Shown here piece after piece: positions 21,083 through 39,449 of a stretch of 59,570 nucleotides of DNA. The DNA comes from Verrucomicrobiota bacterium (GTDB taxonomy: Bacteria > Verrucomicrobiota > Verrucomicrobiia > Verrucomicrobiales > DEV007): positions 1 through 59,570 of the forward strand of contig JAJRVS010000017.1 of the NCBI GenBank assembly GCA_024277195.1, written 5' to 3'. The translations under genes were made by a program, and so were the position numbers. The number at the start of each line of letters is the position of its first letter. Within the stretch, counting starts at the first letter, position 1. The notes below the pieces were generated by a model. The model saw nothing but the letters and a program-made list of their open reading frames with translations, ran no database searches and had not been told where the DNA came from.

Positions 21083-21105
21083 CGGCAAATGATAGAAAAA
21101 TACTT

Positions 21106-22662: not shown

Positions 22663-24342
22663 TCAGTTGGATCCCATATCTTTGCCGCCAGTGACCTTGC
22701 CGTCTTCATGTACGAGTGTGAAATTCCCGCGTGAATCTTTAGCTAGTTGGGTTAGCATTTCAGTAGCTTTTGGAACCATCAGGCAAATCACATTGATTTT
22801 TGCTTTGCTGTGCTTTTTATTAAATGCGATCACATCTTTCACAACGGGTTCTTTAGTAGGGTGTTTTTTGACTACTCCGTCAGTCATGAAAAATATGACG
22901 TCGGGCTTCATAAGCATTGCCATTTTAAGCGGAGTTCTCCAGTCTGTACCCAATTTAACTGGGGTTTCCTCAATTTGTTTGATGACTTTACGTACGTTGA
23001 TAGATGAGGCTCGTATATACTTACCAACGGGTAGTTGACTAGGTTTACCATCTTTATACTCCCAGAAATTTATTCCTTGCGTATTGTGCCAATCGTCATC
23101 CGGATCTTTGGGGTCTGGAGCTGTGTCCCCAACGAACCAGACGGGACCAGAAAAGAAAATAATTTGAAACTCTACTGATGAAGGCAGCGCTCGAAGAGAT
23201 TTGATAAGTTCTTCTTTCATAAGTAAGTGCTTGCTCTTCCCGTTAGAACCCTTTTTGCGCATTGATGCTGACGAATCGACGACAAAAACAACTTTTTGAG
23301 CTTTCGAACGGGAACCGAAAAAAGAAACTGACCCCGAGCCGGCAGTAGTAGCAAATGACATGCTCATCCCCATTACTCCCATGCCAACCCCTTCAAGACT
23401 GAGGTTGCTGGTATCTACTTCCATCATGCTGACAGGAGAAATCGCGGAAACTGTCACAATTGGCGGTGCTGCTGCTGCCTGAGGGGCGATTTGTGATGTT
23501 TTGAGTTTTTGAATAACTTGTTTATCAATCTGAAATTCGTCAATCGATGGTGTGGCTGATACAATCAAACTAGGAGGGCGGGGGCGGGGAACAGATTGAA
23601 TGATTAGAGTAAGTAGGAGGATAATGGCTATATGGGCTAGTATGGATACAGCTAGGGATGATATTTTATCTTTGAGTGCAGATTGTTTTTCTTGTGCGGA
23701 TAGTTTTTCATCTCTAGGGAGGGGGACTTCACTGAAGCATAAGGCAGTGTTTGTATCTTGATGAACTTTGGCTCTGGTCGTCTGGGTGGAGTTGTCGAAG
23801 GGGGATTCTATGGGGGCGGGGACTTTTGTCTTATTATCGGAAATGGTGGGCGAGGAAGGTGGATGGGGTGTTGAGGGTAGGGCACTTGTAAGTATAGGCC
23901 GAAACTCAGAAGGGCAGCTCTTTGGAGGGGTAAGTTTTACTGGTGTGAGCGCTACAGGGAGGGCAGTAGGGCCTGTCGTGGTGACGGATTGGAGTTGGGG
24001 TGCGAGCTGGAGTGTAGGGGTGGATTCTGAGTGACTAGAAGGGAGAAGGCGAGGGTGTTCGGTTAAAGTGCTGTAGGGATTGTTGGCAAAATAGTCAGTC
24101 GTAATCTTTGTTAGGACATCGTCATTGATTTCAGGCAATGTTTGCCATAATTTGCTTAGAGTTTCGTCGTCGGGCAGTGGATTTGGGGCAGTATTCAATA
24201 CGGCTTCGGCGATTTCGAGATTCCCCTTTTTCGCCATGTTTTCAGCAAGCTCGAGACGATTGTTCCAATCGTCAGGGTAAACTTCCAGTTTGAGCAGTAG
24301 GAGTTGTTCTGAATCAGTCATCGCGTCGGGTATTTGTAGCAT
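22663..24342 (-). CDS. Membrane-tethered von Willebrand factor A domain protein
   Basis: The 559-residue protein has an acidic helical N-terminus (about 1-90, perhaps a TPR-like hairpin), a Pro/Ser/Thr-rich linker (100-200), one membrane helix (about 236-254) and an exported VWA domain (about 345-555). The MIDAS motif is intact: DSSAS at about 354-358, a Thr in GTDWRTPLK, and an Asp in FFMTDG. VWA domains bind protein partners through a metal ion. Translation may begin at Met8 rather than Met1. It stands alone on the minus strand between two plus-strand clusters, so no partner is shown by context. Confidence 0.82.
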   Translation of the reverse strand: MLQIPDAMTDSEQLLLLKLEVYPDDWNNRLELAENMAKKGNLEIAEAVLNTAPNPLPDDETLSKLWQTLPEINDDVLTKITTDYFANNPYSTLTEHPRLLPSSHSESTPTLQLAPQLQSVTTTGPTALPVALTPVKLTPPKSCPSEFRPILTSALPSTPHPPSSPTISDNKTKVPAPIESPFDNSTQTTRAKVHQDTNTALCFSEVPLPRDEKLSAQEKQSALKDKISSLAVSILAHIAIILLLTLIIQSVPRPRPPSLIVSATPSIDEFQIDKQVIQKLKTSQIAPQAAAAPPIVTVSAISPVSMMEVDTSNLSLEGVGMGVMGMSMSFATTAGSGSVSFFGSRSKAQKVVFVVDSSASMRKKGSNGKSKHLLMKEELIKSLRALPSSVEFQIIFFSGPVWFVGDTAPDPKDPDDDWHNTQGINFWEYKDGKPSQLPVGKYIRASSINVRKVIKQIEETPVKLGTDWRTPLKMAMLMKPDVIFFMTDGVVKKHPTKEPVVKDVIAFNKKHSKAKINVICLMVPKATEMLTQLAKDSRGNFTLVHEDGKVTGGKDMGSN

Positions 24343-24520
24343 TTCAACGGCACAACAAATCTATTAGGATTTCATGCATCACCTAGCATAGGCGTTCGGG
24401 TGCCAGATCTGCCTCAGAAAAAGATCAACCCGACTAGATATAAGTTAACGTATATATTATGCGTTATTTAGCTAGAAGTTAGAATCGCAATCGGTGAAGC
24501 GGAAAATGTGGGAGTTTGTG

Positions 24521-24573
24521 GCGATTTGAAAGGCAGGTTGAGCAGTGGCGGGACTAATAGTAGTAGGGATGTG
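24521..24573 (+). promoter_or_regulatory. Shared sigma-module leader, copy 1
   Basis: This stretch shares the order AAAGGCAG ... GAG ... GGGACTAA ... TAGT.TAGGG with the leader of the intact ECF sigma gene (29805-29857) and with 38101-38153. The GGCAG box lies about 42 bases before a sigma-like start codon, close to the 40 bases seen in the intact copy. Here it precedes an oxidoreductase-FecR-esterase group. It may be a promoter read by the ECF factor; that part is inference. Confidence 0.5.
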
Positions 24574-24672
24574 ATGGTGTTCACTCGCTACAAATTTGAT
24601 GCTGATGAAAAAAAATATAAAAAAGATAGTTCTCTTGATGCAAATTTTCTCCATTTCTCTCTGCGCAAGTGA
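24574..24672 (+). pseudogene. Relic of the 5' end of an ECF sigma gene
   Basis: A 32-codon frame begins MVFTRYKFDADEKKY, close to LFTRHFADSERAMY at the start of the intact sigma factor at 29858. The DNA around the FTR codons (GTGTTCACTCG) also matches. The frame then loses similarity and stops. It overlaps the start of the oxidoreductase gene in another frame. I read it as the start of a lost sigma gene joined to the oxidoreductase; a conserved short leader peptide is the alternative. Confidence 0.45.
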
Positions 24673-26320
24673 AGAGCAGGAAGTAGATGTGTGTGTGTAT
24701 GGAGCGACTCCTTCAGGGATCGTAGCAGCGATTGCTGTAGCAAGGGAGGGGAAGAGTGTGATAATTGTGGAGCCGAGCCGTTGGGTTGGAGGAATGTCAG
24801 GAGCTGGGATAAAACCAAGCCAGGATTGCCCAAATATCAACATGGTGGGAGGACTCAGTCATAAGCTTATTCTTTCTTTAGGGCTGAGAGGCGATCTGAA
24901 AGGGTTAAGTTTCAGAGAGATCAAGAATAAAAAGAATCAAGTGAGAATCAATCCTCTGCACGTGCGAGAAGATTATTTAAAATTGCTTGAAGATAACAAG
25001 GTGAAGGTCATTTATGATCATCGAATAGCCTCGGTGATCAAAGAGAACCTTGAAATCAAAACAGCCATATTTGATTTTGCCCCTTTTGACTCAACCGCGA
25101 CACCTCCCGAAATTGCTTCAAAAAAGGGTGATCTATCGGTAAAGGCAAAAGTATTTATTGATTGTAGTTATGAAGGAGATTTCCTTCCGCGTTCAGGTGT
25201 GAATTATCGCACAGGGCGTGAGGGAAAAAATGAATTTAATGAGCAGTATGCGGGTGTTCAAGAGCCCTTAAACGCAGTTCAACTAGACCCTTTTGTCACG
25301 CGAGGTGACCCAGCAAGCGGTTTGCTTAAATGGGTAGAGGATGAAGGGGATAAAGCGCTGGGAGATGGAGACCGTTATACGCAGGCGTATAATTATCGCT
25401 ATTACACAACTAATGATCCTCAATTTCGTATTCCTTTTACGAGGCCCGCAGACTATGATGCTCAAGACTATGAATTGATTGGACGTTATGTTCAAACGCT
25501 TGTGGAAAAATACAAAAACCCCTCTCAACGCAAACAGCTTTCGAGTAAATTGACATTCATCTTTCCGGGGAATTTGAATTCTGGGGAACATAATTATATG
25601 CGATGGGGAGGACAACTGTTCTCTCAGGCTCCGTTGGGCGTTAGTTGGAAATATGCTGATGGCGACTATGCAGAAAAGTCAAAAATTTGGAAAATGCATC
25701 AAACTTACCTGAGCGGTATGCATGAATTTTTCAGTACAGACTCTCGTGTTCCTGAATGGCATAGGAAGGAGATACGTGAGCTGGGCAGAGATAAGAGACA
25801 GCACCCGGACACTCTTGGATGGCCCAACCAACTATACATCAGAATAGCGCGTAGGATGGAGGGCAAATATGTGCATACAGAGCAAGATGTTTATGGTAAA
25901 AAGACCGTTGGTGATCCAGTTGGCTTGGCTCAATACGGAATAGATACATACCCATGTCGGCGCATTTGGTTTGAAAAAGAGGGTGAGTACCATGTGGCTC
26001 TTGAGGGGATCATGTTCATAGGGCACGCTAGAGGGCCTACCGACAAGCCTTACGCTATTTCCTACAGGTCGATCGTTCCCAAGGCGTCACAATGTTCAAA
26101 TCTTATTGTGCCAGTTTGTTTTTCTTCTAGCTACATAGGTTATGCTTCAGCACGAATGGAAAATGTTTTCATGGTGCTTGGAGAATCTGCAGGGATTGCT
26201 GCAAATTTGGCTATTGAAAACGAGTGTAAGGTGCAGGAGGTGGCTTACGATGAACTCGAAAAAAAGCTACTTAAATACGGACAGATTATTGACGTTAATG
26301 TTGGCAAATCGAGGAAATAA
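24599..26320 (+). CDS. Exported FAD-dependent oxidoreductase
   Basis: About 573 residues with a signal peptide (hydrophobic stretch near 10-22) followed by a Rossmann FAD-binding motif, VDVCVYGATPSGIVAAIAVA with an E-P pair at the end of the second strand and a GG(M)SG loop. This matches the FAD_oxidored (PF12831-like) family that is common in Planctomycetes and Verrucomicrobiota. The start is uncertain among TTG 24596, ATG 24599 and ATG 24605. The substrate is unknown; relatives lie near sulfatases and glycoside hydrolases and are presumed to act on sugars. The stop is three bases before the next ATG, so it is co-transcribed with the FecR-like gene. The start region overlaps a sigma relic, which suggests a recombination joint there. 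Confidence 0.88.
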   Translation: MLMKKNIKKIVLLMQIFSISLCASEEQEVDVCVYGATPSGIVAAIAVAREGKSVIIVEPSRWVGGMSGAGIKPSQDCPNINMVGGLSHKLILSLGLRGDLKGLSFREIKNKKNQVRINPLHVREDYLKLLEDNKVKVIYDHRIASVIKENLEIKTAIFDFAPFDSTATPPEIASKKGDLSVKAKVFIDCSYEGDFLPRSGVNYRTGREGKNEFNEQYAGVQEPLNAVQLDPFVTRGDPASGLLKWVEDEGDKALGDGDRYTQAYNYRYYTTNDPQFRIPFTRPADYDAQDYELIGRYVQTLVEKYKNPSQRKQLSSKLTFIFPGNLNSGEHNYMRWGGQLFSQAPLGVSWKYADGDYAEKSKIWKMHQTYLSGMHEFFSTDSRVPEWHRKEIRELGRDKRQHPDTLGWPNQLYIRIARRMEGKYVHTEQDVYGKKTVGDPVGLAQYGIDTYPCRRIWFEKEGEYHVALEGIMFIGHARGPTDKPYAISYRSIVPKASQCSNLIVPVCFSSSYIGYASARMENVFMVLGESAGIAANLAIENECKVQEVAYDELEKKLLKYGQIIDVNVGKSRK

Positions 26321-26323
26321 TCG

Positions 26324-27808
26324 ATGGATGGTGATAATGATAGAGAGCTGGGTCTAATTGGTCTGCTGTGTGATGAGTTGATAGATGATCGTCAATTCGA
26401 AGATTTGGATGAAATCCTTTTGCATGATCTATCCTTGCGAGAAGCGTATCGATCATTTGTTGGGATGCATCACGAGCTCGAGCAAGGAGCTTTACTTGCT
26501 AAGGAGTGGGGGGCGGAAGATTGGCAAGCACAACAAAAGCTAGTGCCAACAAGCAGGTGTTTAGTAAACGTTTGTTCGGCAGTCGCACTGCTTGTCTTTG
26601 CGGCAATTGGGTGGATGGCATTCCATTTGGATTTGAAACGAGAGCAGCCTGTTGCGGTATTGACACGGTCTATTGAGGTGGAATGGTCGCACCCAACTCG
26701 AAATAGAGGGAAACTCGGAGAAGCATTGGGAAAAGGCTGGCTGGATATTGACTCAGGTGTTGTAGAGGTGACATTTAGTAGCGGAGCCTCTTTATCTATG
26801 GAGGGACCAGCACGACTAAAAATAGATTCTGCGATGAACTGCTTTAGCGATTTTGGCAAGCTTGTGGTGAGCTGTCCGGAATCGGCGTTTGGATTCACCG
26901 TGCAATTCCGTGGTGGCAAAGTAGTCGATTTGGGCACTGAGTTCGCGCTGAATACAAGAACGGGAGAGGGAACCAATGTGTATGTTCTGGAAGGGGCTGT
27001 GGACGTGATGCTGTTGGATAATGAAAAGAAACTTTTGCAGCAGCTAACCGTGCTTAAGGAAAATGCAGTAAATCTAACTTTTGGAAAGAGTCAGCTTACT
27101 TATCTAAGTTATGATCAGAAAATGTTTGACGGGCTTCGTCGTGAGTCCTTGGTGAAATTACAGCCAATCAAACTCCAATTTGATATCGGGCAAAAGGCCG
27201 GACTATACCGCGGTGTAGATGCTCCGGCTCACAAGGTCGGGGATATGTTTGCCCATGAAAACCAGTGGTCGCAAATCGTAGGGGATCAATCGGGTGCCTT
27301 TGTATTAGCAGATGGTAATATCTGCCCGTTTTCTATCAATGTCGATTATGGTCATGGCAAGGGTCGTATTGATTGGGAAGCATCGCCGGTTACCTACACT
27401 GCAACGGTCTATAAGCGGGCGAAGGGTGTGGCTAATACGGCTCTTTGTTTGGACAATTTACATCATTTTAATGATTTGGGTGTAAGGATTTCGGGCTTAC
27501 CGAAGGGGCGTTACAGGGTGTATGCATTGTGCCGGTCTTTTCGTAGGCCGAAGGCGGCCTACGCAGTGAGTATCGGCACGAACCTCGATCAATTGTCATC
27601 GAACCCTATTGAGGTGGGGGTGATGGGGGAGGCATTAAATCCAAGTTGGGTTTCTGGAGAAACCTATGCTGTGGGTGAAGTGGAAATATCAAAAACGGGA
27701 GATTGGCTCACTATCATAACGAGGTCAGTCGATGATGGGATGATCGGCGAGCCTTATCGAAATAAACTAGCAGTGCTGCTTGGTTTGCAAATTGTAGGTC
27801 TGGAATAA
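26324..27808 (+). CDS. FecR-like transmembrane regulator, copy without its own sigma gene
   Basis: A 494-residue protein with a short cytoplasmic N-terminus (1-80, LIGLLCDELIDDRQFEDLDE), one membrane helix (about 85-103) and a periplasmic FecR domain (about 115-260, with VTFSSGASLSMEGPARL and VVDLGTEFALNTR). A large C-terminal domain (about 280-494) is shared with the paralogue at 30400 but not recognised. The two copies agree at about two thirds of positions by eye over the FecR part. Such proteins act as anti-sigma factors, but no intact sigma gene precedes this copy. It may control the sigma factor at 29858 or be decoupled from control. Confidence 0.85.
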   Translation: MDGDNDRELGLIGLLCDELIDDRQFEDLDEILLHDLSLREAYRSFVGMHHELEQGALLAKEWGAEDWQAQQKLVPTSRCLVNVCSAVALLVFAAIGWMAFHLDLKREQPVAVLTRSIEVEWSHPTRNRGKLGEALGKGWLDIDSGVVEVTFSSGASLSMEGPARLKIDSAMNCFSDFGKLVVSCPESAFGFTVQFRGGKVVDLGTEFALNTRTGEGTNVYVLEGAVDVMLLDNEKKLLQQLTVLKENAVNLTFGKSQLTYLSYDQKMFDGLRRESLVKLQPIKLQFDIGQKAGLYRGVDAPAHKVGDMFAHENQWSQIVGDQSGAFVLADGNICPFSINVDYGHGKGRIDWEASPVTYTATVYKRAKGVANTALCLDNLHHFNDLGVRISGLPKGRYRVYALCRSFRRPKAAYAVSIGTNLDQLSSNPIEVGVMGEALNPSWVSGETYAVGEVEISKTGDWLTIITRSVDDGMIGEPYRNKLAVLLGLQIVGLE

Positions 27809-27868
27809 CAAGATGGAGGGTGAAAAATAATTCGAGCTTAGTAACGAAATTAAATTATATTTATTAGA

Positions 27869-28963
27869 ATGAAAGCGTACTTAATCACAACTATAACTTC
27901 GAGTGTTCTATTTTTTTGGGGAGGGAGTGAAGCTTTTGCTGAAAATATCTCTCCAGATGATCCGGGAATATATTACGAGGGGGTCAATCATATCACGCAA
28001 GAGCCTGAAGGATTTCGCTATAGCCGTTTTACCGAGGAGGTGTATCAACTGAGCCCAGCTCGGGCATCGAAGGGCGAAACGGTGGCAATGAAAAAAGCGC
28101 AGACGACAGCTTGTGTGAAAATGGTTTTTAAAACAAAGAGCCCGGTCATTACGCTTACTTTTGAGACTCCGGAAGGTTATGACCATCGTGGGGCGAATTT
28201 TGGTGTGTATCAAAATGGGCAGTGGTGGAAGTCGATTGATTTTTCCAGTAAAAAAAGAAAAATGGAATGGATGATTGAATCGATAAACCCTGGCGAAGCA
28301 GTGAGATATACCATTGCATTTCCAAGTTGGTCGAATCCGTTTTTGCAAGGCATGAAGCTTGAGCAGGGTTATCAACTTGATGCCATTACCCCATCAAAAA
28401 AGAAGGTCTACGTAGCGTATGGTGATTCGGTATCGCACGGCACGGGGCAGAAGTCGGCGAGTTATCTTACGTGGCCATATCAGCTTGCCGAGAAGCTTGA
28501 TTATGAAGTTCATAGTTTAGCTGTAGGCGGGGCCTCAATCAAGCTGCCAGTGGTCGAGAAGATGTTTAAGGAGTTTGAAAAAATAGACCTGATTACGATC
28601 TACATAGGTATCAATGATAGCGGACGTAAGTCATTGCAACAGTTTGGTGAGGAGTATGATCAGATGTTGTCATTGATAAGAAAATCTCATCCGGCAACAA
28701 AAATTTTCTGTATAACTATCCACTCGATCCCAGAGGACAAGAGTAGTCGTTTGACTAAGATCAAAATGATAGATTTCAGGAAGCCTGTAGCTGAGGTGGT
28801 TGAGCTACGGCAAAAAAAGGGGGATGGAAATTTATTTTTGATCGATGGCCGCTCGCTCACCACTCTCGAGGATGCGATGAATCCGGGTAATGTGCATTTA
28901 AGCGTGGATGGCGCCAAACATTGGTCGGAGAAGCTCTATCCGCAGATCAAAGATGAACTGTAG
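27869..28963 (+). CDS. Exported SGNH/GDSL hydrolase
   Basis: The 364-residue product has a signal peptide (1-25), a beta-rich accessory part and a SGNH domain. Block I is YGDSVSHGTGQ (Ser near 188), followed by the LAVGGA turn, block III IYIGINDS, and block V NVHLSVDGAKHW with the catalytic His near 343. It resembles the C-terminal half of the protein at 19514 and probably removes ester groups from a polysaccharide. It follows the FecR-like gene after 60 bases and is likely part of that transcript. Confidence 0.87.
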   Translation: MKAYLITTITSSVLFFWGGSEAFAENISPDDPGIYYEGVNHITQEPEGFRYSRFTEEVYQLSPARASKGETVAMKKAQTTACVKMVFKTKSPVITLTFETPEGYDHRGANFGVYQNGQWWKSIDFSSKKRKMEWMIESINPGEAVRYTIAFPSWSNPFLQGMKLEQGYQLDAITPSKKKVYVAYGDSVSHGTGQKSASYLTWPYQLAEKLDYEVHSLAVGGASIKLPVVEKMFKEFEKIDLITIYIGINDSGRKSLQQFGEEYDQMLSLIRKSHPATKIFCITIHSIPEDKSSRLTKIKMIDFRKPVAEVVELRQKKGDGNLFLIDGRSLTTLEDAMNPGNVHLSVDGAKHWSEKLYPQIKDEL

Positions 28964-29013
28964 GGAAATTGTGATGTCTTTTTGTCTAAAATAACTGATG
29001 TGAATATAAGCCA

Positions 29014-29748
29014 ATGAAGAAAGTCACGTTAGTTGCAATTTATTGCTTCCTCATCAATTCTGCTTGTGCAGAAACCCATTTATTCATCCTATCCGGACAG
29101 TCTAACATGGTTCGTATGAAGGAGCTCGAAGGGTTCATTCCTGAAATAAAAAGGCTTATTCCGAATGGAGATATACAATATATAAAGGTTGCGTTTCCTG
29201 GTAAGCCCATCCGGCTATGGGTGGAAGAGTGGAATGAAATAGCCAAGAGAAAAGAGGTGGACGTCAAGGCTGCTCGGGCAAAAGACACAAAGGAGGGAAC
29301 CCCCTATTACAATAGTATCATCGCGAAGAGTAAGGCTTTGATGCAAGCGAAACCTAAGTCGCTTACTTTCGTATGGATGCAGGGTGAATCCGATGCCAAA
29401 CCGGGATTGGACAAGGTGTATGAAGAGGCACTAATAAAGTTGATAAGTAGGTTGAGAAAGGAGCTGGATACCCCTGATATGAATATTGTCATTTCGAGGA
29501 TAAGTGACTACGGGACAAAAAATCCACGAGGAAAGGCATTTCCTGGATGGCTGCAGATTCGCAAAGCGCAAGAGCGTATCGTGGCAGAAGATAAACGAGC
29601 TGCGATGGTGAATACGGATGACCTTAACGGGGCAGGCAATGGGCTGCACTATCCTCCTGAAGGTTACAAGTTGATGGGAGAGCGTATGGCAAGACAAGCA
29701 GTTGCGTTGATCAAAGGAGAAAAGCCTGATCCGAAAGGAAGCCCCTAA
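29014..29748 (+). CDS. SASA-type carbohydrate esterase
   Basis: A 244-residue exported protein with signal peptide MKKVTLVAIYCFLINSACA. It carries the SASA/CE6-like motif set: LFILSGQSNM with the nucleophilic Ser near 29, WMQGESDA in the middle, and LHYPPEGYKLMGERMA with the catalytic His near the C-terminus. The family removes acetyl groups from sialic acid, xylan or other sugars. Length is normal for a single-domain member. It follows the SGNH gene after 50 bases and precedes the sigma/FecR pair. Confidence 0.87.
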   Translation: MKKVTLVAIYCFLINSACAETHLFILSGQSNMVRMKELEGFIPEIKRLIPNGDIQYIKVAFPGKPIRLWVEEWNEIAKRKEVDVKAARAKDTKEGTPYYNSIIAKSKALMQAKPKSLTFVWMQGESDAKPGLDKVYEEALIKLISRLRKELDTPDMNIVISRISDYGTKNPRGKAFPGWLQIRKAQERIVAEDKRAAMVNTDDLNGAGNGLHYPPEGYKLMGERMARQAVALIKGEKPDPKGSP

Positions 29749-29804
29749 AACAGTGAAGAATGGACGGCTCTTTTGATAGGGGTTAAAGTTTTTTTAAGGA
29801 ATTG

Positions 29805-29857
29805 TTGAAAAAATAAAGGCAGAATCGATGAGTCCGAGACTAAGTTAGTGTAAGGGC
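29805..29857 (+). promoter_or_regulatory. Shared sigma-module leader, copy 2 (intact module)
   Basis: The bases before the ECF sigma start contain AAAAATAAAGGCAGAAT, then GAG..CC.GAGACTAAG and a weak purine stretch before ATG. Matching runs occur at 24521-24573 and 38101-38153 with the same order and nearly the same spacing. As this is the only copy with a full sigma gene, it is the best candidate for an auto-regulated promoter of this ECF factor. Confidence 0.5.
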
Positions 29858-30403
29858 ATGTCGTCAGAACCACACAACAATCAAAAGCAGGTGCTGTTCA
29901 CTCGTCACTTCGCGGATAGCGAACGTGCGATGTATGGTTTTGCCTACTCTTTGGTGCCGCTACGAGCTGATGCGGATGATATTGTTCAAGAGGCGCTGGT
30001 TTTGCTGTGGAAGCATTTTGATCAATATGATCCGGAGCGGCCATTTCTTCCCTGGGCGAATCGATTTGTTTATCGTCAGGTGCAGACATATCGACGTAAA
30101 CAAGCGACTCGGGCGAAGTATTTTTTCAGTGATGAGACCATCGAGCGTCTCGCTGCCGAGATGCCAGCTTTTCAGGAAAGGGATCAGGCGATGTCGCGAG
30201 CTCTGGAGCTATGTCTTGAGGGTTTAGGGGGAAAGCAGCGAGCATTGATCGAGCAACGTTATGTGGCTAAAGAGTCGTTGTGCAAATTGGCGGATGAAAC
30301 CGGACGCAGTGCCAATTCTTTGTATAAGACTTTGCAAAGAATACGAGTGGGCTTGTATCGTTGTATCAGTCAACGCGTTTTAGATGAAGGGTTTACCGTA
30401 TGA
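29858..30403 (+). CDS. ECF sigma factor, Rhodopirellula/Verrucomicrobium family
   Basis: The 181-residue protein has sigma region 2 (about 20-90, with ADADDIVQEALVLLWKHFDQ) and region 4 (about 120-175, with LCKLADETGRSANSLYKTLQ as a helix-turn-helix). It lacks regions 1 and 3, so it belongs to the extracytoplasmic function group. The YDPERPFLPWANRFVYRQV stretch is typical of the Planctomycete/Verrucomicrobium subfamily (TIGR02989-like). Its stop overlaps the FecR-like start in ATGA, the usual coupling of sigma and anti-sigma. It is the only intact sigma gene in the window and may drive the neighbouring esterase operons. Confidence 0.93.
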   Translation: MSSEPHNNQKQVLFTRHFADSERAMYGFAYSLVPLRADADDIVQEALVLLWKHFDQYDPERPFLPWANRFVYRQVQTYRRKQATRAKYFFSDETIERLAAEMPAFQERDQAMSRALELCLEGLGGKQRALIEQRYVAKESLCKLADETGRSANSLYKTLQRIRVGLYRCISQRVLDEGFTV

Positions 30404-31899
30404 AGGAAGACTTTAAGCGAGTTTTGGAACTGACCGGGCTTCTTTGCGATGAGCTGATTGATGATGAGCAGTTTGTTGAGTTGGATAAACTTCTCGCGGA
30501 GGATGTTAACGCAAGGCGGGTGTACACTTCTTTTTTAGAGGTTCACCATGGTCTGGCTCCCGGTGGGTCGCTTGGACAGGGGCAAAATGAAAAAAGTGAG
30601 GAGCGATTGGTGAAAGATATGCCCAAGGCGAGGAGCTGGGTTCGTTTTTGCACAACAGCAGCAGCAGCGCTGATCGTGGTAGGCTTGGTGTTTTTCAGTC
30701 TGGAATCAAGTCAAGCACCTCCAATCGCTGTGTTGACGCGTGTGATCGACGTCAAGTGGTCTCATCCCACTCGCTTCCGAGGCGAGATCGGGGAGGCTTT
30801 GGAGCGTGGCTGGTTGAAAATTGACGCAGGCGTGGTGGAGTTGGTGTTCAGTAGCGGGGCTTCAGTGTCGTTGGAAGGTCCAGCACAGTTACGGATTGAC
30901 TCGCCGTTAAAGTGTTTTAGCGACTCTGGGATGCTGGTGGCGAATTGTCCGGAGTCGGCATACGGCTTTACTATCGAATTTCGTGGGGGAGAGGTTGTGG
31001 ATCTTGGAACGGAGTTTGCGTTGAACACACGAGTTGAGGGCGAAACGAATGTTCATGTTTTGAATGGCAAGGTGAACGTAGCCCTGTTGGATGACACCCG
31101 TGAGGTCATCGAAAGACAAGAACTGACTGAGAATACGGCGGTGGTTTTGAATTCGAGTGAAGGAGAAATTGCGCCTATGGCTTATAACCAATCGATGTTT
31201 GATGAGTTGCGTCGAGATTCTTTGATCAAGTCACAACCAGTCAAACTTCAATTTGATATTGGTCGTAGGGCAGGGCTATACCATGGGACGGACGCCCCTG
31301 GGCACAGTGGTGGCGACCTGTTCGCACATGAAAACGTTTGGAATCAAATCATTGGTGATCAGGCGGGTTCTTTTGTGATGGCTGATGGCAATCTTTGCCC
31401 ATTTCCGATAAAGGTGGACTACGGACAAGGGGACGGCGAAATCAATTGGCAGGCAGCTCCTGTGGATCGATTGGGTAAAGTCTATAAGCGAGCGCGCGGG
31501 GTTGCTAACTCAGCTCTTAGTTTGGATAATCTATTCTGCCACGACGAATTGGGGATGAGGGTGTCGGGTTTGCCCAAGGGCAGGTATCGAGTGTATGTGT
31601 TGTGTCGATCTTTTCGTAGGCAGAAGGCTACTTATAACGTTAGCATTGGGGCGAACCTGAGGAAGGCGTGGTCAGAGCCGATGAAGGTGCTTCCGATGAA
31701 AGATGAGGGTGTGCCAGAGTGGGAGCAGGGCTATACCTATGCCATGGGCGAGGTCGAAATAAAAAACTCAAAAGATTGGCTTACTATCATAACAGAATCA
31801 ATAGATGACTACACATTGAAAAATATAGACCGTATGAAGAAGGCGCCTCGCAATAATCGGTCGACTTTGTTGGGGTTGCAGATCGTGGAGCTAGATTAG
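30400..31899 (+). CDS. FecR-like anti-sigma regulator paired with the ECF sigma factor
   Basis: A 499-residue protein built like the copy at 26324: cytoplasmic N-terminus with LTGLLCDELIDDEQFVELDK, a membrane helix at about 86-103, FecR domain (about 115-255, VFSSGASVSLEGPAQL, VVDLGTEFALNTR), then an unrecognised C-terminal domain ending LLGLQIVELD. In the family the N-terminus binds the sigma factor and the periplasmic part senses a signal. A four-base overlap with the sigma gene supports a working pair. The last residues match a relic found before 38315. Confidence 0.9.
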   Translation: MKEDFKRVLELTGLLCDELIDDEQFVELDKLLAEDVNARRVYTSFLEVHHGLAPGGSLGQGQNEKSEERLVKDMPKARSWVRFCTTAAAALIVVGLVFFSLESSQAPPIAVLTRVIDVKWSHPTRFRGEIGEALERGWLKIDAGVVELVFSSGASVSLEGPAQLRIDSPLKCFSDSGMLVANCPESAYGFTIEFRGGEVVDLGTEFALNTRVEGETNVHVLNGKVNVALLDDTREVIERQELTENTAVVLNSSEGEIAPMAYNQSMFDELRRDSLIKSQPVKLQFDIGRRAGLYHGTDAPGHSGGDLFAHENVWNQIIGDQAGSFVMADGNLCPFPIKVDYGQGDGEINWQAAPVDRLGKVYKRARGVANSALSLDNLFCHDELGMRVSGLPKGRYRVYVLCRSFRRQKATYNVSIGANLRKAWSEPMKVLPMKDEGVPEWEQGYTYAMGEVEIKNSKDWLTIITESIDDYTLKNIDRMKKAPRNNRSTLLGLQIVELD

Positions 31900-32032
31900 T
31901 GATTGTCGCGCGCTATTCATTTAAATTTAAAGCCAGGGGACATAGGGGGATGTAGTTTCGAAGCTAGCTTTTCGTTTGCAGGATTCTACTGAGGAATATA
32001 ATCTTGTTTTCATGTTTGAGATTGGCTGTGAG

Positions 32033-32746
32033 TTATTCTCCCTTCCAGAATTTAATATAATCAATGTGAACTTCGCCCTCTTGTTTGCCAAAAAGGTTGA
32101 TCAGCATCGGTTTGTCTCGCAGATAGGATGGATGTTTTCCGCGAAGGGTCGGGCCGCCTTCGATTTGAAAGATCAATTCATCGCCACGAATTTCAGCCAG
32201 CATGTGGCACCATGTGTCATCAGGTAATACCCAGGGATCCTCTTTGAGCACTAATTTATCGTGGTCCGCAAGCATGAGGGTTTTATTAACTGCGAATTGA
32301 ATTCTGGCACCGTGAACGCGGAATTCGATGACGCGGTGGTATCGACTGTCTCGATCATTGCCGCCTACCATTTTAAATTTAATCTCCATAATCGCTGGAT
32401 CAGGAATTTTTTTAATATGAAGTCTGGCAAGGTCTCCCATGTGGCTACGTCCAGCCCGTTCGCCTTTGCCGGCAGCAATTTGTTCTTGGATGATTTTTTT
32501 CCTAGATTCGTTACTAGAGGGTTGCCCTACGGCTTTTCCATTTTTAACACTCCATCTGGAATGTTGAACTTCTTGCCACCTGTTTTTGTCCAAGGGTTTG
32601 CCGTCATCAAAGTCACGAGCATAAACGAGTTCACCCTTTTTAAGGAGCAGGGGATCGAGAGCTATTGCATTGTTCATTTGGCAGATGGACAACGATATGA
32701 GCGCAATCGAAGTGGACATGTTTTTCAATAAACTTGGCTTCTTCAT
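32033..32746 (-). CDS. Exported LamG/DUF1080-like beta-sandwich protein
   Basis: A 237-residue protein with a signal peptide (1-30) and the look of a concanavalin-type sandwich: an opening F-D-D-G segment, W..V.NGKAVG, alternating strands and an HIDYIKFWKGE end. This resembles the DUF1080/3-keto-disaccharide hydrolase group only in outline; no active-site set is certain. It is the last gene of the second DUF1592/DUF1552 operon (gap of 42 bases), so it probably binds or trims the same sugar. Confidence 0.65.
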   Translation of the reverse strand: MKKPSLLKNMSTSIALISLSICQMNNAIALDPLLLKKGELVYARDFDDGKPLDKNRWQEVQHSRWSVKNGKAVGQPSSNESRKKIIQEQIAAGKGERAGRSHMGDLARLHIKKIPDPAIMEIKFKMVGGNDRDSRYHRVIEFRVHGARIQFAVNKTLMLADHDKLVLKEDPWVLPDDTWCHMLAEIRGDELIFQIEGGPTLRGKHPSYLRDKPMLINLFGKQEGEVHIDYIKFWKGE

Positions 32747-32788
32747 GTGATTGTGTGGTTGGGAATAGGAATGAGTGAGTGCATGGGT

Positions 32789-34084
32789 TTAGATAAATAA
32801 ATTTGAAAATCCTCCTGTGCTGTCAGCAAACTTTTCAACGGGGCATCCTGCAAAATGCAGCATGCTTAGCCATAGATCAGAGAGGCGACTTTCGTTTTGA
32901 CGATAGGCGAGATGTTGCCCTTGTTGAATTTTCCCTGCACGACCTCCAGCAAGTAAAATAGGTACGTTTTTACGCATGTGACCAGTGCGAATGTCGCTAC
33001 CCATGACAATCAGGGTATTGTCTAGAAGAGTGCTTCCATCTACTTCAATCACTTTATTAAGTTTGTCGATTAGAGCTGCGAAGAGCTGACAAAGTTTTTT
33101 ATCTCGCCATAACAGTGCTTGGTATTCTTTGGTCTCGGTAGAGCCGTAATGGGTCATGCGGTGAGCGGCGACGGAGTCACCAGTTTCTTGGGCAAACTCG
33201 TCTAGCAAGCTGGCAAGGGGAAGCTGATAGGTGAAAACTCGAGTCGTGTCGGACTGAAGTGCGGCGGTCATGAGATCAAACATCATGAGGGCGCCAGGCG
33301 TGCCAGTGAGTCCGCTTGCAGGAGCTGCAAAAGGGGCTTTAGGTTTAGGGGAATTCATCCACTGTTCTTCACGAGCAAGATTTTTCTCTATTTTCCGGAT
33401 GAGACTGAAGTATTGTTCGGTTTTAGCTTTATCGTTTGTATTGAGTTGATTGGATAGGGACTTTGCGTCCAAAAGAGTTGCATCAAGAATGCTACGCTCT
33501 CGTCGAATTTTGTTTCGAGTGCTATCGATGGAGCTAGATTGGCTAGCAAAAAGTCGATGAAAAATCTTGAGAGGATCCGCTTCTCCGTAGAGGCTTTCTC
33601 CGTTAGCATCCCAAGCGAGAGAAAGGCCCTTACCTTTACCAGCGGTATCGCTTGTGGTGAGTTCGATTGAAGGGTAGCGATTAGTTTTTCCAATGAACTG
33701 AGCAGCCACTTGATCGCAGGATATCGAATTGTGAAATCCTTGTCCGAGAATAGGCTGGGGATCGCTGCTGGTCAAAAAAGTGGTTGCGCCCCAATGAGGA
33801 TTTACCCGCAGAGATGCGATATTGGAGAGATTTGATAGGAAGGAAAAATGCTCACGATGTTTGGTGAGAGCTTCCATGGCTTTGGGCAGTGCATAGGATT
33901 TGCCCGTGTCTGCAACATTAGGGAAAAATTCTTTGGAAACACCAAATCCCGTGTTCAGAAAAACAAGGCGTCGCGGTGGCACGGGTGCGGCTACGGTAGC
34001 AGCAAAAAGCGAGGACATATAGGGGAGTGTTATTACAGAACTGGCGCCTGCAAGTATTTGACGACGAGAAAATTGTGTGTTCAT
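32789..34084 (-). CDS. DUF1552 family exported protein, second copy
   Basis: The 431-residue protein has a Tat-like leader (SRRQILAGASSVITLPYMSS) and DUF1552 landmarks: FLNTGFGVSKEFFP near residue 43, GQGFHNSISCDQVAAQFIG, MFDLMTAALQSDTTRVFTYQ and NTLIVMGSDIRTGHMRKNVP. It follows the DUF1592 gene with a four-base overlap. In the first operon the order is the reverse (DUF1552 first), so the two sets are not a simple recent duplication. Function is unproven as for other members. Confidence 0.92.
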   Translation of the reverse strand: MNTQFSRRQILAGASSVITLPYMSSLFAATVAAPVPPRRLVFLNTGFGVSKEFFPNVADTGKSYALPKAMEALTKHREHFSFLSNLSNIASLRVNPHWGATTFLTSSDPQPILGQGFHNSISCDQVAAQFIGKTNRYPSIELTTSDTAGKGKGLSLAWDANGESLYGEADPLKIFHRLFASQSSSIDSTRNKIRRERSILDATLLDAKSLSNQLNTNDKAKTEQYFSLIRKIEKNLAREEQWMNSPKPKAPFAAPASGLTGTPGALMMFDLMTAALQSDTTRVFTYQLPLASLLDEFAQETGDSVAAHRMTHYGSTETKEYQALLWRDKKLCQLFAALIDKLNKVIEVDGSTLLDNTLIVMGSDIRTGHMRKNVPILLAGGRAGKIQQGQHLAYRQNESRLSDLWLSMLHFAGCPVEKFADSTGGFSNLFI

Positions 34085-36783
34085 TGGCTTTGAAAGGGTT
34101 GACTGGAAACTATGATCTGAACAAGGTCACGCATGCGATAGTCGTTCACTTGCCACTTTTTGTGAAGTTCGGAGACCCATTGGTTATCTGAGAATCCTAG
34201 GGGCCTTCCCAGGGCGTAAATAAGCATGGAACGTAGGATGTGATTGGTCACAACGTCTTCCTTGGAAGAGAGGTATTGTTTGACCCCTTCGTAACCGTTT
34301 AAAGTTTCACCACGAAGCTCACTGCGGGAGTTGATTTCAGCGAGGTCAGTATTCTTTCTCGAGCCTTTCACCTTGCGTAGTAAAACCATGGTTTCAACGG
34401 AGGTGTTATCGCGCCAGTCGCCAATAGTATCGAAATTTTCCAAGGCAAACCCGATAGGGTCGAAGCGTTGGTGGCAGGAAGCGCATTGTGCGGATTGTGT
34501 GTGAGCCCTGAGTCGCTCGCGGATGGGCATTGCGGGGCTTCCATCAAATTGGAGCTGGGGTACATTTGGAGGAGGTGGCGGCGGTGGTGAACCTAGCATG
34601 CGGGAGAGGACAAAGTTACCACGTAAGACAGGTGAGGTTCTTTCCCCGCTTGAGGTTAGAGTTAGTATGGCGCCTTGACCAAGCAGCCCGCCGCGGGGAG
34701 AATCAGTTGGAATAGCTACGCGCTTAAACCCGTCGATATGAGGTTCCCCTAATTTATAAAAATCAACAAGCAAGCCGTTGGCCATAGTGAAATCTGAGTC
34801 GATGAAATTTCGAGCGCTGAGATTCTCTCGAATAAGTTCGCGTGAGAAGCTTAGTGTTTCCTCTTTGAACGCCGTGCGAATTTTTTCATTAAACTTTTTA
34901 TAGCCTTTATGGACTACGATCATTTGTAGGCGATCTAGCCCTAACCACTGAGTGGTGAAGGAGTCAATGAAAGATGAAGCTCGGGGAGCTGCTAACATGC
35001 GTTCTACTTCCGACCTCAGAACGCGAGGTTCCGCAAGCTTGTTTTGATTGGCAAGCTTATTGAGTTGAGTATCGGGCGGAGCGCTCCAAAGGAAATAAGA
35101 TAGGCGTTTGGCTAGGTCGAGAGCGCTCAAGTTTTTATCTGAAGAAGATTCTGCATGTAGCAGAAACCTAGGAGACGAGAGAGCTACTGATAGAGCTTCC
35201 CTTAGAGCGGCTATAAATTCAGGATCTATGGTTGTGGTGTCGTTGTTTCGTTTTTTACGAGTAAGCATTCTAATGCGTTTTTTGTCGCGAGGGCTAATGG
35301 CTTTTCGCGCGGGTTCAGGAGTCGTGCCGATTTCGCGATAGGAGAGATAAATTTGATGAAGTGCAGTGATGTAATTATCTGCTGGAGCTTGTCCGCGGAA
35401 AACGTGACGGGTAAATTTGTCGATAATTTTCCTAGCGTAAACTGACTCGGCTTCGGGTTGAGTTGGGGGCTTACTAGTAAAGAAAGTGAAAGCCTGATCA
35501 GATGAGGGGTTTTTTAATGGCCCTACGATATTAATTGAATCTAGCCAGAGGAAGCAGGTCTTTCCTGTGGGGGTGGAGTTCTGAGGGTAGAGGGGGAGGG
35601 GCAGTTTGTTTCCCTTTTCTAAAGCTGTTTTGAGTTTTGCTTCGGCCTGTTTGATTGTGTGCAGGTAATGGCTCTCATGGCCCCCCCCTTTTATGGAAGG
35701 CTCAAGCACTTTGATGACGATCGTATCCAGAGTGTCGGTTGAGCGATTGAGTTCAAACTCAAAAGTTTGTGTTTCAGGTGATGTGTTTTCGATCTTAAAG
35801 ATTCCAATATCCTTTGGCGGTGTGCTGCCGCCATCTTCCCCAATCAGAGATACCTGTGCGATATACGGTTTGTCTGGGGAGGGGTGTGTGAGAGCAGCAC
35901 GTATCGTAAGATGATAGGTGCCGATGTTATCGTTAGGAAATGGCGTACTGAATTCTTGAGGGGAGCCATTTTCATCGCCAACAAAAACATAACCTGTTTT
36001 CGTAGCGGGAATAGTTTGATACAGTGCGCTGACTACATATTTTTTTGCGGTTCTATCAAGGCGGCGGCTATTTTCTTGCCCCTTGGAGATAAGGCGAGAT
36101 TCTGCTTCGAGAGATTTATTGCGAATTTTGAGCTGCCTGGAAATATATTTGTTGTGCTCCGTTTCAGCTTGGATCAAGAACGTTTCAGCCCCTTGCTTCC
36201 CGAGTGCACGAGAAAATGCCTTGTCTAGTGCCTGCTTGCCTATGGCGCGATAGCTGTTGAAAAGCTGTGCGGACATTTCTTGAACAGAGCCAACGCGATC
36301 AAACCCTTCGAAGGTGTTGTCGTTAGGAAGGCGAGAGATGTCCACGGGAACGCCCAGAAGGCTCTTAATCGAGTTGTGATATTCCCGTCGATTAAGCTGC
36401 CGCATAGTGGCTTGAGTTTTATCTGTAAGTTGTTTCCCTGCCTTGTAGAGACGGTTCGTTAGGTGATCAATGGCTGCAATCATTGCCGCCCGCGGAGGTT
36501 GATCTTCATCCTCGGGAGGCATTTCAGACATGTTGAGAGCATCCAATACTTCTTGCCAGGTTTCGGCGGTTCTTTCGTTGGAAAGTGAGGTGGAGAGCTG
36601 ATCCAAGCGTAGATCCCCCTTGCTCTTTTTAGACCCGTGGCAATCGATGCAGTATTGTTTCAAGAAAGGTGTGATGGATTCGACAGAAACGGGCGCTGTC
36701 TCGGCGTGCACAGGATAGCTGCAAGTTATACAGAGAAAGAAACATGCCCCTAGAACAGTGGGGCTTGAGATGAGGCTGCTCAT
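34081..36783 (-). CDS. DUF1592/DUF1588/DUF1585 c-type cytochrome-like protein, second copy
   Basis: About 900 residues. The start at 36783 is chosen because a clear signal peptide begins there (MSSLISSPTVLGACFFLCIT); a GTG at 36846 overlapping the upstream stop is possible but adds 21 odd residues. A haem motif CIDCHG follows the signal, then the DUF1587 segment (QLNRREYHNSIKSLLG), DUF1592 with YFLWSAPPDTQL, DUF1588 with RGGLLGQGAILTLTSSGERT and CASCHQRFDPIGFALENFD, and a DUF1585-like end. Longer than its relative at 4005 by about 70 residues, mainly in the middle. It is coupled to the DUF1552 gene downstream. Confidence 0.92.
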   Translation of the reverse strand: MSSLISSPTVLGACFFLCITCSYPVHAETAPVSVESITPFLKQYCIDCHGSKKSKGDLRLDQLSTSLSNERTAETWQEVLDALNMSEMPPEDEDQPPRAAMIAAIDHLTNRLYKAGKQLTDKTQATMRQLNRREYHNSIKSLLGVPVDISRLPNDNTFEGFDRVGSVQEMSAQLFNSYRAIGKQALDKAFSRALGKQGAETFLIQAETEHNKYISRQLKIRNKSLEAESRLISKGQENSRRLDRTAKKYVVSALYQTIPATKTGYVFVGDENGSPQEFSTPFPNDNIGTYHLTIRAALTHPSPDKPYIAQVSLIGEDGGSTPPKDIGIFKIENTSPETQTFEFELNRSTDTLDTIVIKVLEPSIKGGGHESHYLHTIKQAEAKLKTALEKGNKLPLPLYPQNSTPTGKTCFLWLDSINIVGPLKNPSSDQAFTFFTSKPPTQPEAESVYARKIIDKFTRHVFRGQAPADNYITALHQIYLSYREIGTTPEPARKAISPRDKKRIRMLTRKKRNNDTTTIDPEFIAALREALSVALSSPRFLLHAESSSDKNLSALDLAKRLSYFLWSAPPDTQLNKLANQNKLAEPRVLRSEVERMLAAPRASSFIDSFTTQWLGLDRLQMIVVHKGYKKFNEKIRTAFKEETLSFSRELIRENLSARNFIDSDFTMANGLLVDFYKLGEPHIDGFKRVAIPTDSPRGGLLGQGAILTLTSSGERTSPVLRGNFVLSRMLGSPPPPPPPNVPQLQFDGSPAMPIRERLRAHTQSAQCASCHQRFDPIGFALENFDTIGDWRDNTSVETMVLLRKVKGSRKNTDLAEINSRSELRGETLNGYEGVKQYLSSKEDVVTNHILRSMLIYALGRPLGFSDNQWVSELHKKWQVNDYRMRDLVQIIVSSQPFQSQ

Positions 36784-36842
36784 AGATGTTAGTATATGAA
36801 AAGGAGGTGCTAAACTTTCCCGGTTGGGAACAAGGTGGAGGG

Positions 36843-37751
36843 TCACTTAATAGCCGTATTTTTCGTTACGGAAATCTTAATGGGGGTTGCCTTGAGGGTA
36901 AAATCGTCAAAAGCCACACCGGTGTTTGATGCAACGATGCCTGCCAGAGTTTTATTTTCGTGGGCTATGCCAGCTGATTTCAACTCAGCAATTTTTTCAC
37001 CGTCTATGAACAGGGTCATAACATCCTCTTTGGTCTGTAGTGCTAGTTGATACCACTTCTCCTTTTCGAGGGTAATTGACTGCCGAAATTCTTTTTCTTT
37101 GAGCAACTTCTTGGTCGCTTCATCGAGACCATTCCCGGACTGCTTCATTTTAAAAATCTCATTCTTGAAACCACCTGTTTTGCTATCTAACAGAACGATG
37201 TTCTTAAGATTGACCCCTACGCGACAAATATGCCCTGCGTGCGAGCCTTTGTATTGTTTGTCACCAAATTTGACCATGAAGCCCTTTGCTTCAGGGCCAG
37301 AAAATTTGAATTTTACGTTGATGTGCATGTCCTTCCTGCCTTCGAACCGAACAGAGGAGCCTCCAGGATGACTGGAGTCGGGTTCCTTGGTAACATATAA
37401 AACACCCTCTTTCATCATGCTCGCATCATTATGGTGCCATTGTTCATCAAAGCTTTCTCCGGAAAAATCATCTTCGAATATCGTCTCCATGTCAGAGGGG
37501 TTTTCTGTCTCTGATTTTCCTTCATTGCGGTTTGCCTGCCACTTGGCTACAAAAATCTGATCCTCTTGAGACAATTTATCCATGGGCAATTCAAATACAC
37601 GGCCCTTAAAGCGGATTTTAAGTTTTTGATCTCTCAAGTCGAGCAATTCTGCTTTGATCTTATTCCCTTCTGAATTCGTCAAATCTCGAAACTCGCGCGC
37701 GTGGATCGGTTGCAGAATTAGTAGGGTTAAGATCGTCAGTAATAGTTTCAT
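36843..37751 (-). CDS. Exported protein with SHD1-like and LamG-like domains
   Basis: About 302 residues from the preferred Met (MKLLLTILTLLILQPIHA signal peptide); six more residues are possible upstream. The mature protein begins with an SHD1-like beta domain (about 20-70: FRDLTNSEGNKIKAELLDL, FELPMDKLSQEDQIFV), a small domain frequent in Verrucomicrobiota and Planctomycetes exported proteins. A LamG/concanavalin-like sandwich follows (about 85-295, with FEDDFSGESFDEQWHHND and LFIDGEKIAELKS). It heads the operon. A binding role is inferred; no catalytic set is seen. Confidence 0.78.
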   Translation of the reverse strand: MKLLLTILTLLILQPIHAREFRDLTNSEGNKIKAELLDLRDQKLKIRFKGRVFELPMDKLSQEDQIFVAKWQANRNEGKSETENPSDMETIFEDDFSGESFDEQWHHNDASMMKEGVLYVTKEPDSSHPGGSSVRFEGRKDMHINVKFKFSGPEAKGFMVKFGDKQYKGSHAGHICRVGVNLKNIVLLDSKTGGFKNEIFKMKQSGNGLDEATKKLLKEKEFRQSITLEKEKWYQLALQTKEDVMTLFIDGEKIAELKSAGIAHENKTLAGIVASNTGVAFDDFTLKATPIKISVTKNTAIK

Positions 37752-38100
37752 GGTTGAGCTTTCAGTCATTTTTAGGTGTTGTTATTTTTCCAGACAAAAC
37801 GGGAAGCGTATCGGTGTACATTGAGCGGGATTAAGTTGAAACACTTATGAAATAATTGGAAAAAAGTAATGCTTGTATATCTATTAGACGTTTGTGAGCC
37901 TAATCTGCCGAATTATTCGAATTTGAGGACATAATCCTGGCGATATTAATTCCTATAGCTAAAGCGGGAGGGGCGCGGTGACATTGAATCATGCTGGAAC
38001 GGGGTTTGCCTAGATGATAAGTCAGGTGGTTATGCTCGCCAGGATGCGTCGAATTACTGCGGATCGGCTGAAGTAAATTATTAGTGGCGATTCTGCTTAA
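37752..38100. other. Intergenic stretch, no gene seen
   Basis: About 350 bases between the minus-strand operon start and the sigma-module remnant. No open frame of useful length or clear RNA is visible. It probably holds the promoter of the SHD1-DUF1592-DUF1552 operon, but I cannot place the boxes. Confidence 0.5.
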
Positions 38101-38153
38101 ATTGTAAAAATATAGGCAGAATTGAGGTCTGAGAGTCTAAGTTTATGAGAAGG
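38101..38153 (+). promoter_or_regulatory. Shared sigma-module leader, copy 3
   Basis: TTGTAAAAATATAGGCAGAA and the later GAGAGTCTAAGTTTATGAGA match the leader of the intact sigma gene at 29805-29857 almost base for base over its first half. The GGCAG box is 39 bases before the ATG at 38154, as in the intact copy. It now precedes a remnant and a sialate esterase gene. Confidence 0.5.
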
Positions 38154-38315
38154 ATGTTCACTACGACTATATTATTCGCTGCAGAGCCTGAGAGAGGGGT
38201 TCACTTTACACGTAATCTTGGGGAGTTGAAAAACCAGAGGCTTGACGCTATAAAATAAACTTTATGTAAGAATGGCTCAAATCTGATTGGATTTCAGCTT
38301 GTAGAATTAGCATAA
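38145..38315 (+). pseudogene. Collapsed ECF sigma/FecR module
   Basis: A short frame after the leader reads ...RGVHFTRNLGELKNQRL... and stops at 38258; the FTR box sits where the intact sigma has LFTRHF. In the same frame 16 codons before the stop at 38315 read NGSNLIGFQLVELA, closely matching the FecR-like C-terminus STLLGLQIVELD at 31899. So the two ends of a sigma-FecR module remain while everything between is gone. The reading is by eye and the joint cannot be placed exactly. Confidence 0.5.
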
Positions 38316-38327
38316 ACAAATTGTAAA

Positions 38328-39449
38328 ATGTTGCCATATACGAATCTAATCTTGAGAACATTATGCGTCCTGTTTGTAAGTCAGGTCACCCTATTTGCTA
38401 AAGTGGAAATTGCCCAAATTTTCTCGAATGGCATGGTGATCCAGCGAGACCAAAAGGTTCCCGTATGGGGGTGGGCATCTCCTGGTGAGCGGGTGACCGT
38501 AAAGTTTGCGGGACAAGAGCTAGGGACAAAAGCCGGCAGTGAGGGTAACTGGCGCGTAGATTTAAAGCCGATCGCCATGAACAAAAAAGGCATAGTCCTT
38601 CAGGTCATCGGTAAAAAAAAGAAAATAGAAGACTTGGAACTCACCGATTCGCGAACTTATCCTGGGGGTTGTTTTAACGGAATGTTGCACCCTTTGTTTC
38701 CCTTTGCTGTTACGGGTGTGGTCTGGTATCAAGGGGAGGCTAATATGAGGAGAGCTTATCAATATAGGAAGTTACTGCCTATGATGATCGCTGAGTGGCG
38801 CAGGCGCTTCGAGCAAGCTGATATGAAGTTCTACGCGGTTCAGCTACCTGATCTTTTTAAGGACACTGCCATTGGGCGCAGTAATGTTGCTGAATTAAGG
38901 GAGGCGCAGGCTATGACGGTGGAGATGGATGAGAATGCGGAGCTTGCGGTGATTATTGATTCAGATCAGGACGGCAACCTTCACCCGAAAAACAAACAGC
39001 TGCCTGCTGAGCGACTTGCGTTGATCGCGCTTGCTAAAGATTACCAAAAAGCTATTGAATATAGTGGGCCCAAGTTCAAAAAAATGGAGATTGGCAAAGG
39101 CAAGGTGCGGCTATTTTTTTCCCACCAAGGCGCGGGACTTGTGAGTGGGTCTCGTGTGAGCGCGGGGAGTTGTGAGATCAAGCTGTTATCGGAACCTTTG
39201 AATAATTTTATCGTTGCGGGTGCTGACAAGAAGTTCTACCAAGCGGAGGCAAGAATTGATGGAGATAGCGTGATATTGAGCAGCGATCTGGTGAAGCAGC
39301 CCGTGAGCGTGCGGTATGCTTGGAGCCAGCATCCTGAGCAAGTGAACTTTTACAACAAGGAAGGCTTACCAGGAGTTCCGTTTCGCGCTGATGATTGGCC
39401 GTGTACTACGAGAAACATCGTCAAGGCTATGATTCTATTGGTGCATTGA
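38328..39449 (+). CDS. Sialate O-acetylesterase-like protein, internally deleted
   Basis: The 373-residue product has a signal peptide, an N-terminal Ig-like domain (FSNGMVIQRDQKVPVWGWA, VTVKFAGQ) and the C-terminal half of a sialate O-acetylesterase: CFNGMLHPLFPFAVTGVVWY, QGEANM, LREAQAM and the His-bearing LHPKNKQLPAERLALIALA. What is missing is the block between, which in relatives begins GEVWLCSGQSNM and carries the catalytic serine. The joint lies near residues 100-113 (38625-38670), and well over 100 residues appear lost in frame. The protein is probably inactive or has a different role. It follows the collapsed sigma module by 13 bases. Confidence 0.8.
   Translation: MLPYTNLILRTLCVLFVSQVTLFAKVEIAQIFSNGMVIQRDQKVPVWGWASPGERVTVKFAGQELGTKAGSEGNWRVDLKPIAMNKKGIVLQVIGKKKKIEDLELTDSRTYPGGCFNGMLHPLFPFAVTGVVWYQGEANMRRAYQYRKLLPMMIAEWRRRFEQADMKFYAVQLPDLFKDTAIGRSNVAELREAQAMTVEMDENAELAVIIDSDQDGNLHPKNKQLPAERLALIALAKDYQKAIEYSGPKFKKMEIGKGKVRLFFSHQGAGLVSGSRVSAGSCEIKLLSEPLNNFIVAGADKKFYQAEARIDGDSVILSSDLVKQPVSVRYAWSQHPEQVNFYNKEGLPGVPFRADDWPCTTRNIVKAMILLVH

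Follow-up and report, generated by a model that had tools for sequence, protein, structure and literature searches.

The −35 box of promoters recognised by ECF sigma factors carries AAC as its hallmark (PMC8103513). Departure from an AAC-type −35 box has a precedent in the ECF41 promoters, which consist of TGTCACA, a spacer of 16 ± 1 and CGTC (PMC3426412). With regard to regulation, fecIR and hasI are not autoregulated, and HasS of Serratia, which accumulates during activity of its sigma factor, has a dampening effect on that factor (PMC9249621). The window (the whole stretch of DNA analysed here, 59,570 nucleotides from a Verrucomicrobiota bacterium) contains a locus that is comparable in part with each of these systems. 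Like the classical autoregulated ECF/transmembrane anti-sigma systems (PMC8103513), it has overlapping sigma and FecR-like genes, a predicted autopromoter and few predicted target units, whereas its −35 box is GGCAG instead of the AAC type, its targets are clustered around the gene, and a second FecR-like gene occurs without a sigma gene. A putative single-pass FecR-like membrane regulator is shared with FecI/FecR and HasI/HasS (PMC9249621), and the second FecR-like protein (26324) could dampen as HasS does; unlike in those systems, autoregulation is predicted here and there is no iron link. The proteins examined did not include any identified TonB-dependent receptor. The similarity to ECF41 (PMC3426412) lies in a group-specific −35 box departing from AAC and in a small number of local targets (predicted ones in the present case), one of them an oxidoreductase gene, while the sigma factor is of another family, the −10 box differs, and the fused C-terminal regulatory domain is that of ECF41. 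The system is of an ordinary kind, with an undescribed predicted promoter and an orphan regulator. Its regulatory genes are as follows.

29858–30403, plus strand: ECF sigma factor (TIGR02989, 140.9 bits with a cut-off of 124.55; PF04542)
30400–31899, plus strand: FecR-like predicted anti-sigma factor/sensor, overlapping the sigma gene, with one hydrophobic segment at 83–101
26324–27808, plus strand: orphan FecR-like membrane protein, 56% identical to 30400–31899, without an adjacent sigma gene

The model score above the curated cut-off places the sigma factor in TIGR02989, the Rhodopirellula/Verrucomicrobium family. As in a sigma/anti-sigma pair, its gene overlaps that of a predicted membrane anti-sigma factor (30400–31899). 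The FecR-like protein gave a weak match to the solved putative anti-sigma factor 4m0n (E 0.11), an NCBIfam anti-sigma model matched the 26324 protein below its cut-off, and a Pfam search of the FecR-like proteins gave no match.

An earlier note on this DNA had described a leader of about 50 bases shared by three sigma-type modules. The leaders and their boxes are listed below.

24532–24557, plus strand: leader 1, −35-like GGCAGGTT, −10-like GACTAA
29818–29843, plus strand: leader 2, −35-like GGCAGAAT, −10-like GACTAA; predicted autopromoter of the sigma gene, with the ATG 40 nt downstream
38115–38140, plus strand: leader 3, −35-like GGCAGAAT, −10-like GTCTAA

All three contain AGGCAG-N15-GWCTAA, at 24532, 29818 and 38115 (with AAGGCAG or TAGGCAG, and GACTAA or GTCTAA); the pattern has no other exact match anywhere in the 5.49-Mb draft genome. 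Between leaders 2 and 3, 38 of 53 bases are identical; with leader 2 as the query, the next best match in the window plus 392 kb reaches 30/53. The two leaders were also recovered as repeat D4 (79% over 42 nt). Judged from this similarity, they are clearly copies of each other derived from one fairly recent duplication. Leader 1 agrees with the other leaders at 21–23/53 bases, below the 28–31/53 reached by unrelated sites, so that the two boxes and their spacing hold for all three modules, but the extended leader does not. Since leader 1 is similar in the boxes and spacing only, the common feature is a bipartite element with fixed spacing rather than a 50-base leader. The start codon does lie about 40 bases past GGCAG as described, at 42, 40 and 39 bases after its G in leaders 1, 2 and 3, respectively. 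An Rfam search of the leaders found no family and no riboswitch or other known RNA. No sigma-70 consensus was found at the leaders' boxes, and sigma-70 promoters and terminators at the leaders were not above shuffles.

A matrix built from the three leaders was used to scan the window and 392 kb of background from the same genome. The sites at 37909(−) and 12719(+) ranked fourth and fifth, both above everything in the background; they are upstream of genes in the correct orientation and were absent from the earlier account. The further copies are as follows.

12719–12744, plus strand: promoter-like site, GGCAGATC-N12-GCCTAA, 85 nt upstream of ORF 12804–19406; 2 mismatches
37884–37909, minus strand: promoter-like site, GGCAGATT-N12-GTCTAA, 140 nt upstream of ORF 36843–37769(−); 1 mismatch
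24388–24413, minus strand: candidate sixth, weaker site, GGCAGATC-N12-GCCTAT, 71 nt upstream of ORF 22663–24342(−)

When the 300 nt upstream of 35 genes were scanned, five sites scored 24–25, one scored 15.5 and the rest at most 5.3. The score of 15.5 belongs to 24413(−); it exceeds the 99.9% quantile of background 300-nt stretches (14.6) but is below the background maximum of 15.9. GGCAG-N15-G[ATC]CTAA is present at the five strong sites, 40–213 nt from annotated starts, which is the arrangement of an ECF-dependent promoter: two boxes with about 15–17 bases between them, just upstream of a start. In the whole genome, AGGCAGRTTN12GWCTAAKW with up to two mismatches has 9 matches, 5 of them in the window, compared with 7 for a control, and the four best matches are all in the window, which constitutes 1.1% of the genome. 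The motif withstood the comparison of its frequency upstream of genes with chance, to which the earlier note had tied its claim. Three of the five strong sites had served to derive the pattern, and hence only the two new sites, where they lie and what the relatives show count as independent evidence. A matrix from four autopromoters alone recovered 38115, and 24532, 37909 and 12719 were not among its best sites. Word counts revealed no motif shared by the remaining ECF genes of the genome and the family. Both results speak against the promoter reading set out below.

The genes behind these sites, with the adjoining ones, are listed below.

12804–19406, plus strand: predicted target, 2200-aa protein with a TPS secretion domain (PF05860, E 2.9e-25)
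21079–22545: sulfatase
22663–24342, minus strand: candidate target, 559-aa protein with weak VWA and TPR Pfam matches, below the curated cut-off
24599–26320, plus strand: predicted target, FAD-dependent oxidoreductase (PF12831, E 3.1e-79), the ORF being listed from TTG 24596
27869–28963, plus strand: GDSL-like esterase (PF13472), module 1 operon
29014–29748, plus strand: SASA-type esterase (PF03629), module 1 operon
32033–37769, minus strand: predicted target operon of a 3-keto-disaccharide-hydrolase-like ORF, a PSCyt/PSD protein, a DUF1552 protein and a 237-aa ORF
38328–39449, plus strand: predicted target, SASA-type esterase, followed by the thioredoxin-like ORF 39497–40588

The TPS domain of the 12804–19406 product is N-terminal, and no other domain was recognised in it. 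Judged from the gene families (esterases and a sulfatase), the enzymes may serve the use of acetylated or sulphated polysaccharide.

The element is quite probably the promoter of an autoregulated ECF sigma factor (29858–30403) with a compact local regulon. The earlier proposal of a promoter used by the remaining sigma factor, located ahead of the oxidoreductase/esterase operon and the esterase gene, gains good sequence support from the genome-wide rarity and clustering of the element, the position and orientation of the newly predicted sites, and a related element at orthologous loci. The predicted promoter would consist of a −35 box GGCAG(R)(W)T, about 15 bases, and a −10 box GWCTAA (GCCTAA at one site), followed by a short 5′ UTR. 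We infer that its activity depends on 29858–30403, which would be held by the co-transcribed FecR-like membrane protein (30400–31899). Upon an outside signal, the sigma factor would be released and would transcribe its own operon in positive feedback. It would also transcribe at least four neighbouring units including secreted or envelope enzymes, namely the gene of the TPS-domain protein (a surface or secreted protein), the FAD oxidoreductase/orphan FecR/esterase operon, the 3-keto-disaccharide-hydrolase/PSCyt/DUF1552 operon and the SASA esterase operon. The VWA/TPR gene (22663–24342, minus strand) is a possible further target. The absence of the AAC hallmark from the GGCAG −35 box is a point against a promoter, and a point in its favour comes from the partner genes at orthologous loci described below.

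No FecR-like orthologue reached E ≤ 1e-50 in the 57 nearest relatives, and the comparison therefore rested on four MAG contigs, L045, L046, L047 and L048 (L045 and L046 are the same contigs as G162:C199 and G126:C42, and were counted once each). Their ECF orthologues are about 51–61% identical over the full alignment (51–64% in a separate comparison), and the sigma/FecR pair is also present in L045, L046 and L048. Directly upstream of the sigma gene, all four contigs have GTCAGRTT-N12-GCAWAT, which is the only exact match in each of the two genomes searched, those holding L045 and L046. By hand count, the ATG lies 40 nt from the box in the window and two orthologues; the remaining orthologues have 39 and 53 nt. 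Despite the similarity of the sigma proteins, the orthologues' −10 box is GCAWAT and not GWCTAA; a one-base shift aligns GCAAAT with xCTAAT (common xCxAAT). As the −10 boxes match only with this shift, the exact spacing is uncertain and identical spacing across species is not claimed.

DUF1552 and PSCyt/PSD genes come after the sigma/FecR pair in L046 and, by similarity, also in L045, L047 and L048. Their homologues in the window form two minus-strand operons, 4005–12396 and 32033–37769. The latter is headed by the site at 37909(−), and it is this homology that speaks for the promoter. In an upstream scan, no copy of the element was found for the operon 4005–12396(−). Compared with those of 32033–37769(−), the genes of 4005–12396(−) show the higher sequence similarity to the genes that accompany the sigma/FecR pair at the orthologous loci.

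Module 1 has no sigma gene, and its FAD oxidoreductase gene is located directly before the orphan FecR-like gene, in the place occupied by the sigma gene at the orthologous loci. The orphan protein has one hydrophobic segment. Apparently, only one other FecR-like orphan is present in the genome, and that one lies at a contig edge (C261). Identities between the 26324 and 30400 genes at the three codon positions are 0.66, 0.76 and 0.37, and the low value at third positions (37%) relative to second positions (76%) indicates that the orphan gene has been kept by selection. In an unrooted tree of five sequences, the two FecR-like proteins group apart from those of L045, L046 and L048 with 96–98% support; this grouping indicates that they probably arose by a duplication in this lineage. 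A selected orphan paralogue is the best evidence for sigma-gene loss in module 1, which is plausible on these grounds. Module 1 would probably derive from a duplication of the promoter, sigma gene and FecR-like gene, after which the sigma gene was lost and the oxidoreductase gene took its place. The orphan protein, whose own gene is among those that the promoter is predicted to drive, may act on the single sigma factor as a second input or as a feedback brake. As a tentative extension, which we regard as possible but on the doubtful side, the regulon may have widened by duplication of the sigma 5′ end, with the sigma copies lost, the promoters driving enzyme operons, one copy leaving behind the selected second FecR-like regulator, and one sigma factor answering two sensors.

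The earlier note had also described F-T-R codons near each new N-terminus, and had held that the control region has outlived the gene it controlled. Two short ORFs bear on these points.

24574–24672, plus strand: 32-codon ORF MVFTRYKFDADE..., possible ECF 5′ relic, overlapping the start of the oxidoreductase gene
38154–38258, plus strand: 34-codon ORF MFTTTILFAAEPERGVHFTRN..., possible decayed ECF N-terminus

F-T-R does occur in frame after the start codon in all three modules, where about 0.2% of ATG frames have it in the first 21 codons by chance, but its positions differ (codons 3–5 in module 1, 14–16 in the ECF gene and 18–20 in module 3). Compared with the ECF N-terminus, the MVFTRYKFDADE peptide gave p=0.006 for protein and p=0.027 for DNA, the best among several comparisons. 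The MFTTTILFAAEPERGVHFTRN peptide, for which several comparisons were likewise made, gave p=0.0015 with the ECF N-terminus of L046 and 0.05 with the window's own, and its ORF ranked 17th of 18,480 fragments with an ECF N-terminal HMM. Neither peptide was significant in an unbiased family-HMM search for sigma relics. Taken as sequence similarities, the F-T-R words are no more than suggestive of lost sigma genes, and the odds that the short peptides after leaders 1 and 3 are ECF relics appear roughly even. The 8-mer TGTTCACT, present in all three modules, was considered as a common ECF relic and dropped: the module 3 copy is not at the FTR position, and thus the 8-mer and FTR cannot both correspond to the 5′ end of the ECF gene there. 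Survival of the control region beyond its gene is plausible for module 1, with its orphan FecR-like gene and possible 5′ relic, and weak for module 3, which has no sigma gene, no FecR copy and a weak relic. The 12719 and 37909 sites carry the element without any sign of a lost sigma gene, and such a loss is accordingly unnecessary for them.

The possible relics bear on the alternative that the leaders are mere remains of duplicated sigma genes with no present function, modules 1 and 3 being decaying ECF 5′ ends. The close identity of leaders 2 and 3, the in-frame FTR in both sigma-less modules, the match of the module 3 peptide to L046 and the lineage-specific duplication of the FecR-like pair would all agree with it. 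We nevertheless consider it unlikely, given that leader 1 retains just the boxes and spacing, as expected from selection on a promoter, and that two other sites bear the same boxes before genes that show no ECF relic.

Control of this cluster by a different regulator (an activator, a repressor or another sigma factor) that binds the element also appears rather improbable. At least 17 further ECF-like genes are present in the genome, and the different −10 box of the orthologues would be compatible with such control. The fixed two-box spacing, free spacer, asymmetric boxes and near-start position fit a promoter better than an operator, and the related element stands before orthologues of 29858 in the four MAG contigs. 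Moreover, the element is absent, isolated matches apart, from relatives without that sigma gene: at up to one mismatch, 37 relatives have at most one match each, scattered, in three of them, while four lie clustered together in the window's genome. A reading of the leaders as short upstream regulatory ORFs or as RNA elements (attenuation by leader peptides) is very improbable, since the 32- and 34-codon ORFs, although preceded by ribosome-binding-like sequence and located right after the boxes, encode peptides alike in FT only, no Rfam family or excess of terminator-like sites over shuffles was found, and the 12719 and 37909 sites have the boxes alone in common.

The promoter of the autoregulated sigma factor and its local regulon, as predicted here, are concrete proposals for a TIGR02989-family ECF sigma factor; in the literature found, no promoter was reported for this family. 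Through them, esterase, oxidoreductase and PSCyt/DUF1552 genes, whose roles in Verrucomicrobiota are uncertain, become connected with this sigma factor. Should the orphan FecR-like protein indeed act on that sigma factor too, the locus would be an example of sigma-gene loss rewiring signalling and spreading a promoter.

Elsewhere in the genome, the one-mismatch matches at G000:C162:6432–6458(−) and G000:C340:7275–7301(−) (L056 and L063) are near-identical and lie in similar sequence, AGGTAGCTTTYAAYAAAYAATGWCTAA; they probably belong to a dispersed repeat that has nothing to do with the promoter.
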